A DNA stretch of 21,857 nt from a virus, in IMG/VR virus record IMGVR_UViG_3300009610_000099, positions 1-21,857 of that record, one strand, 5' to 3'. The notes below the pieces were generated by a model. The model saw only the letters and a list, made by a program, of their open reading frames with translations, did no database searches and was not told the origin of the DNA. Shown piece after piece: positions 17,040-20,844 of the stretch; within the stretch, counting starts at the first letter, position 1, and every line of letters begins with the position of its first letter. The translations under genes were made by a program, and so were the position numbers.

Positions 17040-17723
17040 ATGCTTTACGCCCCGCCCGCGGAACTCCGCCGAAACGTGCGACGCTGCAAACGAACGGGAC
17101 AGATCGACCACGCGCTGGCGCTCATGCTGATGAAGATCGCGCTGGAAGTGAACAAACGATGGCGATACATCCCCTGGCGCGAGAACGATGAATTCGTTCA
17201 GTGCGCCATGCTCTACCTGCTGGAAACCCGCGTACTCGACAACGCCGACCCCGACAAGAATCTCTTCGCCTACTTCACCGAGGTGCTGCGGAACTTCGGC
17301 AAAGCGCTCAAAGACCGGGCCATCAAAGAAGCCCAGGCCCGTTGGGATTACCTGGAACTCGTGAAGCAGATCGTGGTCGCGTCCCTCGACCGACGGAAAA
17401 ACCTGAACGACACCACAATGGAGGATTTGCATGCGATCGTTTCTTACGAAGCCGAACCTGGAGAAAATGACCCTGTTCCTCTCGATCGCGCTGACGATCA
17501 CCATCATGCTGTTGCTGGTCACTGTCGCGAGCTACAACGCCGGGCGACGCAACGAAGCGGCGCAGGCGCGGACGTCGCCCGCGGCCGAATCGGAGGAGAG
17601 CTACGCCGCGGCCGTGGGCAACTCGATCAACGACACCGCGGCGATCGAAGACGTGCCGGCCTGGTTCGACGCCAACGCCGAACACGCGGTCCAAGGAATC
17701 GGCTACAAGAAGCGCGCGCTTGA
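17040..17723 (+). CDS. T4 gp55-like late sigma factor (sigma-70 region 2 type)
   Basis: Residues 20-100 resemble T4 gp55 and other sigma region 2 proteins. The order is an ALALMLMKIALEV helix, then KRWRYIPWRENDEFVQCAMLYLL, an acidic NADPDKN turn, and the signature NLFAYFTEVLRNFGKALKDR, which parallels gp55's N-x-x-AY-x-T-Q segment. Such proteins direct host RNA polymerase to short late promoters without a -35 element. No region 4 is seen. From about residue 131 the frame runs 293 bases inside the next gene, and its product becomes Arg-rich (RRR-type), unlike real coding. The functional protein may effectively be the first 130-150 residues, or a stop may have been lost. The gene follows a CTAGATACGTTC motif and has no Shine-Dalgarno sequence. 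It could alternatively be a diverged ECF-like factor. Confidence 0.72.
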   Translation: MLYAPPAELRRNVRRCKRTGQIDHALALMLMKIALEVNKRWRYIPWRENDEFVQCAMLYLLETRVLDNADPDKNLFAYFTEVLRNFGKALKDRAIKEAQARWDYLELVKQIVVASLDRRKNLNDTTMEDLHAIVSYEAEPGENDPVPLDRADDHHHAVAGHCRELQRRATQRSGAGADVARGRIGGELRRGRGQLDQRHRGDRRRAGLVRRQRRTRGPRNRLQEARA

Positions 17724-18144
17724 ACGCCGGACTCGCATCATCGTCAACGCCGGCGTCCGCGAAGCCGGCCAGCAGTTCCTGGCTGCGATCGTCATTCAGC
17801 CCGGCGCTGTCAACGAAGTCGGCGCGCCGGTCTACACCCTCGACCGCTCGAAGCTCATCAACATCGACCAGGAGAAGCTGAAGCGTTGGGCCGCCATCGC
17901 GCTGGTCGTACTGCAGTTCGTCGAGCCCTTCGTTCCGCCGCCCTACAACTTCGCCGTCCACGCCGCGGTCATGCTGCTGAAGCTGTACCTGGCCGAAGAC
18001 GAGCCGATCCTCCGCACCTTCTTCGTCGCCGGCGGCCCGCCAGACGGCCGCATCCAGCCCTCCTATTGCGTCCGCGTGTGTGATTGTCCGGCTCGATGGC
18101 GACTTGAACGCTGTAATGGCTTCGGGTTTGCGACCGCGGCCTGA
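17431..18144 (+). CDS. Unknown membrane protein
   Basis: This 237-aa protein starts at an ATG 6 bases after GGAGG (17420-17424). An N-terminal transmembrane or signal-anchor helix lies at residues 14-34 (LFLSIALTITIMLLLVTVASY). A polar region and a second hydrophobic region near 152-185 (WAAIALVVLQFVEPF; FAVHAAVMLLKLYLAE) follow. The last 35 residues (Cys-containing, PSYCVRVCDCPARW) look less regular. It lies between the sigma gene and the secreted papain-like protein, so a role in the late or lysis module is plausible. Not recognised as a known holin or spanin. Confidence 0.65.
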   Translation: MRSFLTKPNLEKMTLFLSIALTITIMLLLVTVASYNAGRRNEAAQARTSPAAESEESYAAAVGNSINDTAAIEDVPAWFDANAEHAVQGIGYKKRALERRTRIIVNAGVREAGQQFLAAIVIQPGAVNEVGAPVYTLDRSKLINIDQEKLKRWAAIALVVLQFVEPFVPPPYNFAVHAAVMLLKLYLAEDEPILRTFFVAGGPPDGRIQPSYCVRVCDCPARWRLERCNGFGFATAA

Positions 18145-18155
18145 AATCCGGGCGG

Positions 18156-18163
18156 CTAAATAC
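18156..18163 (+). promoter_or_regulatory. CTAAATAC motif, candidate late promoter -10 element (site 4)
   Basis: CTAAATAC differs from the other three sites by one base (G to A) and contains TAAATA, the 3' part of the T4 late promoter TATAAATA. It lies 2 bases before an in-frame GTG (18166) and 23 bases before ATG 18187 of the papain-like gene. There is no Shine-Dalgarno sequence between. It would drive the small-membrane-protein cassette. Confidence 0.45.
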
Positions 18164-18186
18164 GAGTGTCTCCTTTCGAGCACGTC

Positions 18187-19698
18187 ATGACCCGCCTGTA
18201 CTCCACCCTGCTGATCGCGGCGATCGGCTTTAGCTGCACTTCTTGGTCGATCGCCGCGATCGGCGCCGCCGAGGCCTTCTCGCCGGCGAAGGGACCGATC
18301 TCCGCCAGCGGCAAGCCGGCGACGATCGACGTGCCGGCGAACCTGCACATCAAAAACCTCTCCGGCTCCGACGGCCTCGGTCTCTGCGTGTTCACGAGCG
18401 TCGAGCTTTCCGCACGCTGGCAGAACGTCACTGAGTTCGACGGCTTTCAAAAGTGGATGACGCGCCGGCCCGGCGGCGGCTCCCCGAATAAGCTCGACAA
18501 GATGATTGCCCTTTTCGCCCAGGAGAAGGGTCTGCCCGCTCCACTCTACATTCAGCACACCGGCGGCGACGAGACCCTGCTCGAGCTGGCGCTCATCACC
18601 GGCCGCATGCCCTCCGTCACCTACGCCGGCCGCGACGACTTTTACCGTCCTTCGCCGCGGAATCCCAGCGGACGAATCGCGCACATGGTCAACCTCGCCC
18701 ACCTCGACGCAACCGAAGCCGCCATCATCGACAACAACCGACCCGGCGTCTGGGTTTGGATGACGCGCGCCGAGTTCCTGCAGCGCTGGCGCGACATGGA
18801 CGGTGGTTGGGCCGTGGTGCTGCTGGCGCCGCCCCCGCCGCCACCGGCGACGTCGCCGCAGCGGATGTTCGGGCAAACCGCCGGACCGAGCGCAGGAAAT
18901 TATTTTTGGTACGGTCCCTATGGTGAGGGCGACGGCCGTTCTTGGCAGCTGAGAGAAGTTTTCTGCAACAGCAACGGCTGCAGCTACCGCTCCATCGGCT
19001 TGCTCGACTTCACGGGCTGGTATCCCCGGGGCGGCGAATGCCTCCCCGTCCGTGATTGCCCGAAACTTCCACCGGCTGCCTACCTCGCGATCAAACCCCT
19101 CGACCCGCCGGCCGCGGCCGACGTCGCGCCGCCGGCGATCGAGAATTACGGCATCGAACTCGACAAGGTCCACCAGGGCAAACGCTATTCGATCTCCGGA
19201 TTCGAAGTCGATCGCGATTCAGCCATGGCCGCCATGACGTCGCTTGCCAACGACAGCGGCCGTTACCACCTCTCGATCGTCAGCGACGACGACGCGGCCC
19301 GCCGCGCCGCCCTGCAGGCGATCGCCATGGAACCGGCCCTGGCCGCGTTCCGCGACAAGGTCCACGTGCAGAGCTACCGGTCGACCGATTGGCCCGTGCA
19401 ATTGCGTTCGCTCAAGTCCGGTCTCACCGTGCAGAAGCCGCGGATCGCCGGCGGCGCCGTCGTGTGGCAGTCGCCCGACTTCACGCCGGCGATGATCGCT
19501 GAAGGCCTGAAGTACACCGACCCGAACTTCTCGCCGCCGAAGCCGATGCCGGCGCCGCCCTCCCCTGCCCCGTCGCCGCCGGGACCGGCGAACCCGAACA
19601 CCCCGTCGCCGGCGACGCCTCCGATCAACGGCAAGGTGCTGCTGATCCTGATTGGCGTCGCCCTTCTTTACTTTCAACTCCGCAACACCCGGACCTGA
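18187..19698 (+). CDS. Secreted, C-terminally membrane-anchored papain-like (C39-like) protein
   Basis: Numbered from ATG 18187 (503 aa; an in-frame GTG at 18166 adds seven), the order is as follows. A signal peptide covers about 1-30 (LYSTLLIAAIGFSC, cleavage likely near AAEA). A peptidase-like domain follows, with candidate Cys67 in GLGLCVFTS, His166 in AHMVNLAHLD and D182/N183/N184 in IIDNNRPG. This Cys-His-Asx order fits the papain/C39 fold. A Pro-rich break (PPPPPP, near 216-222) leads to a Cys-containing segment. A second alpha/beta domain spans about 315-455, then a long Pro-rich linker, and a final transmembrane helix near 484-500 (VLLILIGVALLYF). It appears built to work outside the inner membrane while tethered to it. 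It could cleave peptidoglycan peptides or an envelope protein. The catalytic assignment is by eye, and an inactive structural role is possible. Confidence 0.7.
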   Translation: MTRLYSTLLIAAIGFSCTSWSIAAIGAAEAFSPAKGPISASGKPATIDVPANLHIKNLSGSDGLGLCVFTSVELSARWQNVTEFDGFQKWMTRRPGGGSPNKLDKMIALFAQEKGLPAPLYIQHTGGDETLLELALITGRMPSVTYAGRDDFYRPSPRNPSGRIAHMVNLAHLDATEAAIIDNNRPGVWVWMTRAEFLQRWRDMDGGWAVVLLAPPPPPPATSPQRMFGQTAGPSAGNYFWYGPYGEGDGRSWQLREVFCNSNGCSYRSIGLLDFTGWYPRGGECLPVRDCPKLPPAAYLAIKPLDPPAAADVAPPAIENYGIELDKVHQGKRYSISGFEVDRDSAMAAMTSLANDSGRYHLSIVSDDDAARRAALQAIAMEPALAAFRDKVHVQSYRSTDWPVQLRSLKSGLTVQKPRIAGGAVVWQSPDFTPAMIAEGLKYTDPNFSPPKPMPAPPSPAPSPPGPANPNTPSPATPPINGKVLLILIGVALLYFQLRNTRT

Positions 19699-19700
19699 CG

Positions 19701-20009
19701 ATGAACCTCGACGAAATTCTCCTGCAGCTTCAAGCGCACGGCACCTGGGGCTGGGTGCTGGCCGTCGCGATCGTCGCCCTCTCCGCACTGCGGAAGTCGC
19801 GGTCGCCGGCGACGCCGGTTTCGCCGCCGCCGAGCCCAACACCCGCGGTTCAGGTCGCGAGTGCCGGCGGCGGCATTGAAGTCAGCTACGCCCAGGCCCT
19901 CCTGGAGCAGCACGCGGCTCTAGTCACTGCCGCCGCTGCAGAGCGTAAGCGCCTCAAGACTGAACTGGGCACGCTCGTCTCCATCACCGGCATCGCACCG
20001 CTCGATTAG
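19701..20009 (+). CDS. Small single-pass membrane protein
   Basis: This 102-aa protein has a short helix, a transmembrane segment at about 15-31 (WGWVLAVAIVALSAL), then a Pro-rich stretch (SPPPSPTPA) and a C-terminal Ala-rich helix likely to form a coiled coil (AQALLEQHAALVTAAAAERK). Its start is two bases after the stop of the papain-like gene, so the two are surely co-expressed. A short amino-terminal membrane anchor with a helical outer part could serve as a holin partner or spanin-like element, but no family is recognised. Confidence 0.7.
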   Translation: MNLDEILLQLQAHGTWGWVLAVAIVALSALRKSRSPATPVSPPPSPTPAVQVASAGGGIEVSYAQALLEQHAALVTAAAAERKRLKTELGTLVSITGIAPLD

Positions 20010-20044
20010 TCAGTCCCAATTTTAGAACCCCAAGGAGACCTGCC

Positions 20045-20218
20045 ATCGAAACGATTCTCAGCCTGGTGAAGTTCGACTTCCTGAAAGGCTATCGCACAAT
20101 GGCTGCGGCCGCGGCCGCGATCGCCGGCGGCGTCGTCTTTCTCGTCGACGGCAACACCGCCGGCGGCATCCAGTCCATCGCCCTGGGCCTCGGCCTCCTC
20201 GGCGTCCGCTTCAAGTGA
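20045..20218 (+). CDS. Tiny hydrophobic membrane protein with probable ATC start
   Basis: A perfect AAGGAGA (20032-20038) lies 6 bases before ATC 20045, from which the frame encodes (M)ETILSLVKFDFLKGYRT and then a hydrophobic Ala/Gly-rich segment to the C-terminus (57 aa). The next candidate starts, GTG 20066 and ATG 20099, are too far from that Shine-Dalgarno sequence. ATC is a very rare initiator; an ATG-to-ATC error or mutation is possible. The hydrophobic half (residues 19-57, AAAAAIAGGVVFLVDG and GLGLLGV) could form two short membrane helices. Small holin-like by size, function unproven. Confidence 0.55.
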   Translation: METILSLVKFDFLKGYRTMAAAAAAIAGGVVFLVDGNTAGGIQSIALGLGLLGVRFK

Positions 20219-20319
20219 CCGACCTCGCCATGCTCAGGGTCGGCCTCTGCGTCGGTTTCTTCATCGGCGTGGCCTTCACCATCGGCGTGACCGAGCTGTT
20301 CAACAACGACTGCGATTGA
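20215..20319 (+). CDS. Micro membrane protein (34 aa)
   Basis: GTG 20215 overlaps the preceding TGA (GTGA). The product is almost entirely one transmembrane helix (about residues 7-29, LRVGLCVGFFIGVAFTIGV) with a short acidic tail ending NNDCD. Tight coupling with neighbours and a clean hydrophobic pattern argue that it is real despite its size. Function unknown. Confidence 0.55.
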   Translation: MTDLAMLRVGLCVGFFIGVAFTIGVTELFNNDCD

Positions 20320-20321
20320 AG

Positions 20322-20462
20322 ATGACCACCACCGACCCGGACAACGCCATGCCAAAGAGCAAAGCCGAAGCGATCACCTCGTACATCTGCTCCATGATCG
20401 TCAAGCTGGCCTTCCTGGGCCTGCTCGCTGTTGTCGCAATTTACGGTTGCAATCGCCATTAA
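20322..20462 (+). CDS. Micro membrane protein (46 aa)
   Basis: ATG 20322 lies two bases after the previous stop. A polar N-terminus (TTTDPDNAMPKSKAEA) is followed by one transmembrane helix at about 19-41 (ICSMIVKLAFLGLLAVVAIY) and a short CNRH end. ATG 20349 is an alternative shorter start. Unknown function; part of the run of micro membrane proteins. Confidence 0.55.
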   Translation: MTTTDPDNAMPKSKAEAITSYICSMIVKLAFLGLLAVVAIYGCNRH

Positions 20463-20474
20463 CTGGAGATCCGG

Positions 20475-20648
20475 ATGAAAGCGCGTACTCTGCTGAGGGA
20501 CTTTTTAATTTCGTTGACCGCGACGCTCCTCGTGGGAATGATCTGCAGCACGATCTACCTTTGCCACGAGAAGTGTCCGTGTGACAGGGGCGGCGACGGC
20601 GTCAGCGGCTGTCCCTGCAGCAAGCTGTGCGAGTGCAAGAGACGGTGA
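20475..20648 (+). CDS. Micro membrane protein with Cys-rich tail (57 aa)
   Basis: GGAG (20465-20468) lies 6 bases before the ATG. An N-terminal transmembrane helix at about 10-30 (FLISLTATLLVGMICSTIY) is followed by a tail with eight Cys in 28 residues, in CxC and CPC patterns (KCPCDRGGDG; GCPCSKLCECKRR). The tail could bind metal or form disulphides outside the membrane. This is the last gene before the intrinsic terminator. No family is recognised. Confidence 0.6.
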   Translation: MKARTLLRDFLISLTATLLVGMICSTIYLCHEKCPCDRGGDGVSGCPCSKLCECKRR

Positions 20649-20700
20649 TTTGCTTTCGACGGTGACCCGTTCTAACTGTTGTGGGAAGGCTCCGTTGGTT

Positions 20701-20736
20701 GCCCGCCGGCGTCCCCGAACGCCGGCGGGCGTTTTT
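20701..20736 (+). terminator. Intrinsic terminator closing the late operon
   Basis: GCCCGCCGGCGT (20701-20712) pairs perfectly over 12 bases with ACGCCGGCGGGC (20719-20730) around the loop CCCCGA, and is followed by GTTTTTG. This is a textbook Rho-independent terminator on the plus strand, 52 bases after the last micro membrane gene. The remainder of the 20649-20844 gap holds the repeats listed next. Confidence 0.92.
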
Positions 20737-20751
20737 GTTCATGGCCACACT

Positions 20752-20835
20752 CGGCATTTCTGGCGATGGCGGATCCTCTCGGCATTTCTGGCGATGATCG
20801 ATCGACACTTGACGGCCACGGCATTTCTGGCGATG
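20752..20835 (+). repeat. Three direct copies of a 17-bp repeat before the methyltransferase gene
   Basis: CGGCATTTCTGGCGATG occurs exactly at 20752-20768, 20780-20796 and 20819-20835, at spacings of 28 and 39 bases. The first copy is out of frame with the other two, so it is not a protein repeat. The third copy lies between a TTGACG (20809-20814) and a weak -10-like GATGCT (20832-20837), just before ATG 20845. This suggests an operator array or iteron-like binding sites controlling the methyltransferase. The binding protein is not in the window as far as I can tell. Confidence 0.8.
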
Positions 20836-20844
20836 CTACCAGGT

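Follow-up and report, generated by a model that had tools for sequence, protein, structure and literature searches.

A membrane-tethered papain-like protein with thioredoxin-like and small membrane partners in a candidate late envelope module of Planctomycetota phages

The window analyzed here is the whole of a 21,857-base viral record (G000), which looks like a fragment. Genes on its + strand run from the terminase and portal through a protease-major capsid fusion and tail genes with a tape measure protein to a tail fibre, followed by a gp55-like late sigma factor, an ORF with a transmembrane (TM) segment, a protein with a putative catalytic Cys (the Cys protein), and five tiny membrane ORFs (s1 to s5), after which a strong terminator leads to a D12-type DNA methyltransferase (Table 1). 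The gene for the Cys protein sits close to that for the tail fibre. Our own ORF calls agree in coordinates and sizes with an initial annotation of the Cys protein and the five small genes, made from the sequence alone, and the signal peptide, the C-terminal membrane helix, and the residues Cys67, His166, and Asp182 that it described were all recovered. Translation of the Cys protein may begin at 18187 or at an alternative GTG at 18166.

Table 1 Features of the module and its upstream region in the window
Feature	Position	Strand	Basis or remark
gp55-like late sigma (PHROG 234), possible module regulator	17040..17723	+	E 5.8e-5
ORF with N-terminal TM	17431-18144	+	weak Rz-like spanin match, E 0.071
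CTAAATAC, candidate late promoter element	18156..18163	+	one of four CTARATAC sites
Exported papain-like Cys-His-Asp protein (predicted), 503 aa	18187..19698	+	ORF, alignment, predicted model
Papain-like catalytic domain, aa 40-215	18304..18831	+	pLDDT mostly above 90; Z about 11-12.5 to papain-like folds
Putative catalytic residue codons	18385 (Cys67), 18682 (His166), 18730 (Asp182)	+	
Thioredoxin-like domain without CXXC, aa 333-445	19183..19521	+	Foldseek; hhalign
C-terminal transmembrane helix, aa 482-502	19630..19692	+	model; position hydrophobic in L088 and L199 too
s1, 102 aa, N-terminal TM, Pro-rich linker, and helix	19701..20009	+	equivalents at same place in relatives
s2, 57 aa, two hydrophobic segments, GYRT...GVR; holin-like	20045..20218	+	relatives, z 4.5-7.4
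s3, 34 aa, single TM	20215..20319	+	start overlaps s2 stop
s4, 46-48 aa, single TM	20322..20462	+	hydrophobicity
s5, 57 aa, TM and Cys-rich tail	20475..20648	+	same architecture, same place in L060 and L015
Intrinsic terminator hairpin, 13-bp stem then TTTTTGTT	20700..20731	+	52 bp after last stop

Both proposed boundaries of the block, the CTAAATAC site at its start and the terminator at its end, were located. The consensus CTARATAC occurs at four sites in the window, all on the + strand, where 0.10 would be expected, and none of 100 shuffles reached four. Together with the gp55-like sigma gene, these sites (2214, 15463, 17028, and 18156) may represent a phage late promoter set. CTAAATAC was also considered as a promoter conserved across the family and was rejected, as it is missing upstream of the Cys genes of relatives. 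The 3′ part of the sigma ORF overlaps another ORF, leaving its true end uncertain; the overlap, with the TM-segment ORF, covers about 290 bases in a different frame, so unless the genes really do overlap, one of these readings is in error. Between the terminator and the start of the methyltransferase gene are three copies of CGGCATTTCTGGCGATG (window 20750-20842, spacing 28 and 39), a possible operator or iteron.

The Cys protein is predicted to contain, in order, a signal peptide, a catalytic domain, a thioredoxin-like domain, and a C-terminal TM anchor. An AlphaFold2 model built on 41 sequences had a mean pLDDT of 79, with values of 87-98 in blocks across most of residues 41-220. In this model residue 67 begins a helix, residue 166 is near the start of a strand, and residue 182 is just past a strand. 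Aligned with papain-like folds in VIA-align, the catalytic domain gave Z scores of 10-12.5 over 131-165 residues, and the top matches were a CDI toxin (12.5), CtaG (12.0), phytochelatin synthase (11.9), the pseudomurein endoisopeptidase PeiR (11.6), and a C39-like peptidase (11.2); because these scores are almost tied, they fix the superfamily but not the function. In its modeled fold, with a Cys at a helix start, a His, and an Asp, the protein fits the papain-like cysteine peptidase superfamily, and the site proposed for Cys67, His166, and Asp182 is thereby placed in a confidently predicted papain-like fold. Non-peptidases, for example phytochelatin synthase and CtaG, also have this fold.

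Single-sequence searches with the Cys protein returned no relative in viral contigs, annotated phages, Pfam, or PHROGs, a PDB sequence search also returned none, and a neighboring gene (N), the sigma gene, and the window terminase used as queries found zero relatives in viral contigs. Relatives were nevertheless recovered from IMG/VR with a degenerate DNA motif for HMV, then DNN, then GGWA, which indicates that they were hidden by sequence decay rather than absent. The scan gave at least 119 stretches; in 118 of those listed the frame is open across the motif, and all 118 match the window protein by BLASTP. The closest of the matches listed are L088, at 41% over a 490-residue alignment that takes in the C-terminal TM, and L028, at 68% over 193 residues. 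A model lacking a papain-like site had been named as grounds for abandoning the original proposal, but the model has the site and the triad is invariant in homologues. Among the matches listed, Cys67 is invariant in all 115 homologues covering the position, as are Asn57, Gly65, Gly97, and Trp191 where covered, and all five residues lie outside the retrieval motif; HMV, DNN, and GGWA belong to the search motif itself, and the invariance of those residues therefore proves nothing.

The Cys domain, in the window protein as in 40 relatives, is described by no peptidase family of Pfam, PHROG, or NCBIfam, and no curated peptidoglycan-hydrolase family was matched. Incidental matches of this 41-protein set were to thioredoxin models via one member, to lipoprotein attachment sites, and two marginal ones in NCBIfam. 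No paper describing a planctomycete papain-like/thioredoxin module was found in the literature searched, and the main text of a survey of viral lytic proteins includes neither planctomycetes nor papain-like enzymes.

The thioredoxin-like partner is a feature of the module absent from the initial annotation. Residues 333-445 of the window protein match thioredoxins by Foldseek and contain no CXXC. This part is fused to the enzyme in the window, L088, the L026 group, and L199, and is encoded by a separate partner gene with a signal peptide and C-terminal TM in L014, L100, L024, L083, L080, and others. In one clade the enzyme is a short lipoprotein whose gene is followed directly by that for a partner about 230 residues long; this partner matches the C-terminal domain of the window protein in hhalign profile comparison (prob 97.5, E 5.7e-12); the model of this partner gave thioredoxin matches at a low overall pLDDT of 66.9, higher in the core. 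At lipoprotein-clade loci the partner gene is present in 25 of 25 and a downstream WCxxC thioredoxin in 22 of 25. Among module proteins, CXXC is found only in this extra thioredoxin and in the N-terminal domain of L017; neither the domain in the window protein nor the products of the partner genes have it. As no WCxxC thioredoxin was found in the window either, disulfide reduction is not to be assumed there. L017 carries a canonical thioredoxin domain (CGPC) N-terminal to its Cys domain, a third way of joining both activities.

Downstream of the Cys gene, at 19701-20648 on the + strand, five of six short ORFs are hydrophobic, compared with a mean of 0.13 and a maximum of 2 in shuffles (n=200) and with 6% of short ORFs by the same criterion in the remainder of the window. 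Five short membrane ORFs in a row on one strand are not expected by chance. Each has the membrane segment originally described (19-residue Kyte-Doolittle mean 1.59-2.57), and the last does contain eight Cys, although one is inside the TM and only seven follow it in the tail. An N-terminal-TM small protein occupies the s1 position in many lineages. Translation of s2 may start at ATC 20045 behind AAGGAGA (57 aa) or at the first standard start, GTG 20066 (50 aa); its counterpart is a two-helix protein with GYKT...GLR (z 4.5-7.4 to L060, L015, L041, and L076), separate in L203 and fused behind the N-TM protein in L041 and L076. No relative of s3 or s4 was detected. Sequence conservation of s5 was considered and rejected, since its similarity to the L060 and L015 proteins is not significant and extends to architecture only. 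The small membrane proteins adjoin the candidate lysis enzyme, as holins would, and gave no significant match to holin families in Pfam or PHROGs; many holins belong to no family. The only trace of a spanin was the weak Rz-like match of ORF 17431-18144, and no partner lipoprotein was seen.

In relatives, the module consists of the enzyme, the thioredoxin-like partner (fused or separate), and the N-TM small protein, with the two-helix protein in several lineages. The expectation that the gene set would be kept in related phages is borne out for these components, but s3 and s4 have no relative and s5 is kept in architecture only. In the window and in G006 the module closes the tail operon; elsewhere it lies 2-3 kb ahead of the terminase, and in the lipoprotein clade the Cys gene is near the terminase. 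When loci were fetched by the lipoprotein-clade terminase alone, enzyme and partner were present in 22/22 with enough upstream sequence, although the fetched terminases are at least 80% identical and this test therefore covers one clade only.

Hosts were sought by scanning the same DNA motif over the genome contigs of 84,980 species genomes. There were 18 matches in 17 genomes, 13 of which were confirmed by profile. Eleven of these 13 are titled Planctomycetota or subgroups, and the remainder are one Chloroflexi MAG and one other MAG; the Planctomycetota groups represented are Gemmataceae, Gemmatales, Pirellulales, Thermogutta, and Planctomycetales. In Gemmataceae CJuql4, a homologue of the window sigma (38% over 92 residues) is encoded immediately upstream of the Cys gene and an s1-like gene is downstream. 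By sequence likeness, these relatives tie the window to the Gemmataceae as host family, short of direct proof. A profile scan across the Planctomycetota detected the family in 1 of 294 genomes, which is not usable as a rate because only five candidates per genome were scored.

The initial annotation reported no recognizable endolysin, holin, or spanin elsewhere in the window, and we likewise recognized no endolysin or holin in the ORFs scanned, but since the window is an apparent fragment this absence says little, and relatives had to be tested. A record-by-record search with five Pfam families found Amidase_2, Phage_lysozyme, SLT, and Peptidase_M15_4 absent from 38/38 records and M23 absent from 31/31, and the same tool detected thioredoxin in 12/38 records, so it works on such records. 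ORFs of four genomes (G006, G021, G007, and G022) were also scanned against Pfam and contained no peptidoglycan hydrolase. These ORFs were at least 60-75 residues long and included those spanning fetch boundaries, with the omission of a contig-edge ORF and the Cys gene in G007 and a 122-aa ORF in G022. G006 (49,675 bases, 127-bp terminal repeat) is the sole one of the four with a clear terminal repeat. In these searches ORF calling was crude, divergent hydrolases may be missed, and the genome of the window is incomplete. A standard endolysin elsewhere, which had been put forward as evidence against the module, was thus found neither in the four genomes nor, for the five families, in the 31-38 records.

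We interpret the block as the representative, in this window, of a late envelope-degrading (lysis or egress) module conserved among Planctomycetota phages, a reading to which we give a little better than an even chance. The fold, invariant site, predicted export and anchor signals, gene set, host group, and lack of a recognized hydrolase in the relatives examined are supported by computation, and from them we infer catalysis, substrate, timing, and lysis. As no known wall-cutting enzyme was found where searched, this gene set may be the exit route of these viruses. Three refutations were tried and failed, so a role at the envelope of an unusual host is well supported; of the originally suggested lysis or envelope-passage module for an unusual wall, it is the envelope role that stands, and lysis, proteolysis, and substrate are proposals. 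The site, partners, small proteins, late position, conservation in one clade, and lack of a recognized hydrolase best fit an essential envelope-degrading step, lysis foremost, and a putative protease replacing the endolysin is the most economical reading. Against this, a promoter-like element and a terminator are also the typical look of accessory "moron" genes.

In the proposed mechanism, the phage gp55-like sigma would drive late transcription and the Cys enzyme would be exported by Sec and remain membrane-anchored. The small membrane proteins would most likely damage or gate the inner membrane in a holin-like manner or tether the enzyme, which would attack the cell wall, standing in for a classical endolysin. 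Its substrate would most likely be the Cys-rich protein wall reported for Planctomycetales, e.g. Gemmataceae, with peptide links in peptidoglycan as the alternative. Lysis of a protein wall with no peptidoglycan hydrolase, in which a disulfide-rich Planctomycetales protein layer would be cut by the tethered papain-like protease and handled by the partners of thioredoxin fold, is put forward tentatively, at clearly less than an even chance. Most Planctomycetales, the Gemmataceae among them, are reported to lack peptidoglycan synthesis genes and to have Cys-rich YTV proteins in their walls instead (PMC8567305); however, lysozyme-sensitive peptidoglycan sacculi were described in Gemmata obscuriglobus (PMC4432640), and Gemmata-type hosts may therefore still require a peptidoglycan enzyme. 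Given this conflict, a protein-wall target ranks first for us, though its probability is modest, and peptidoglycan cleavage, exclusion, and processing are retained as alternatives.

The enzyme may be a tethered peptidoglycan endopeptidase of an unrecognized endolysin family that cuts stems or cross-links, making a protein wall irrelevant. We consider this unlikely. Wall-cutting enzymes do exist among papain-like folds, as the PeiR match at Z 11.6 illustrates, and the Gemmata sacculi are reported to be lysozyme sensitive (PMC4432640), but PeiR scores within 1 Z of unrelated papain-like proteins, no wall-hydrolase family in Pfam or NCBIfam was matched, and most Planctomycetales reportedly lack peptidoglycan genes (PMC8567305).

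Less likely still is superinfection exclusion or lysogenic conversion, in which the exported, membrane-held protein would alter or block the host envelope against other phages. Exported phage proteins that are lipoproteins or membrane anchored frequently have such roles, a promoter-like site and a terminator flank the block, and integrases are encoded in G007 and G022. Accessory genes for exclusion tend to have a patchy distribution, however, whereas 22/22 loci of a single terminase clade have this module, its catalytic site is invariant, and several partner genes are conserved with it, and the CTARATAC motif is common to three further + strand sites in the window. A processing or assembly enzyme that matures phage or host surface proteins (e.g. 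receptor-binding parts) at the membrane, or acts at entry, is very improbable, as a tail fibre gene close by in the window is outweighed by the signal peptide or lipobox plus TM anchor, the location near the terminase instead in the lipoprotein clade, and small membrane proteins left unexplained.

The module enzyme shares a core fold with the C39-like group (PDB 3erv, PCAT1/ComA peptidase domains), CDI toxin 9l5u, CtaG, and phytochelatin synthase, including a Cys at a helix start and the His and Asp/Asn on strands, but is only about 8-19% identical to them, is predicted to be exported and anchored, and has an extra thioredoxin-like domain. The pseudomurein endoisopeptidases PeiW, PeiP, and PeiR, lytic for a non-standard wall, are likewise papain-like (PeiR over 145 residues), but the module enzyme has no sequence match to that family (Pfam E up to 0.01; PDB) and the hosts differ. 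We know of no thioredoxin-like partner of PeiW, PeiP, or PeiR. PeiR was considered as the structural homologue of the Cys enzyme and rejected because it ties with unrelated papain-like folds. As in canonical holin-endolysin-spanin cassettes, small TM proteins lie next to an exported enzyme in a late position; unlike in those cassettes, the enzyme is outside the peptidoglycan-hydrolase families, has a signal peptide plus a TM anchor, and is accompanied by a thioredoxin-fold partner. That fused or partner domain has the fold of thioredoxins but not their CXXC, and a true WCxxC thioredoxin is added in the lipoprotein clade.

It is disputed whether peptidoglycan or Cys-rich proteins hold together the Gemmataceae and related bacteria (PMC4432640 versus PMC8567305). 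The lytic enzyme of planctomycete phages would be an independent witness to the envelope layer that needs breakage, and the module names a single candidate enzyme. The module also provides a marker by which phages of a major phylum in the environment can be recognized, and its enzyme could be put to use in breaking open planctomycete cells. The protein family described here is large and absent from the curated libraries that were searched.

Further genes were observed around the module in some relatives. L053 and L072 are on one 103-kb contig (IMGVR_UViG_3300050333_000165), which has two Cys modules, each near its own terminase gene. Besides the module and a thioredoxin, G021 (L068) has a gene with a Trypsin_2 peptidase domain. 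On the viral contig G030, a large ORF close downstream of the Cys module of L088 reads like a Cas3-type HD/helicase protein and may mark a prophage edge or be a phage-borne CRISPR gene.
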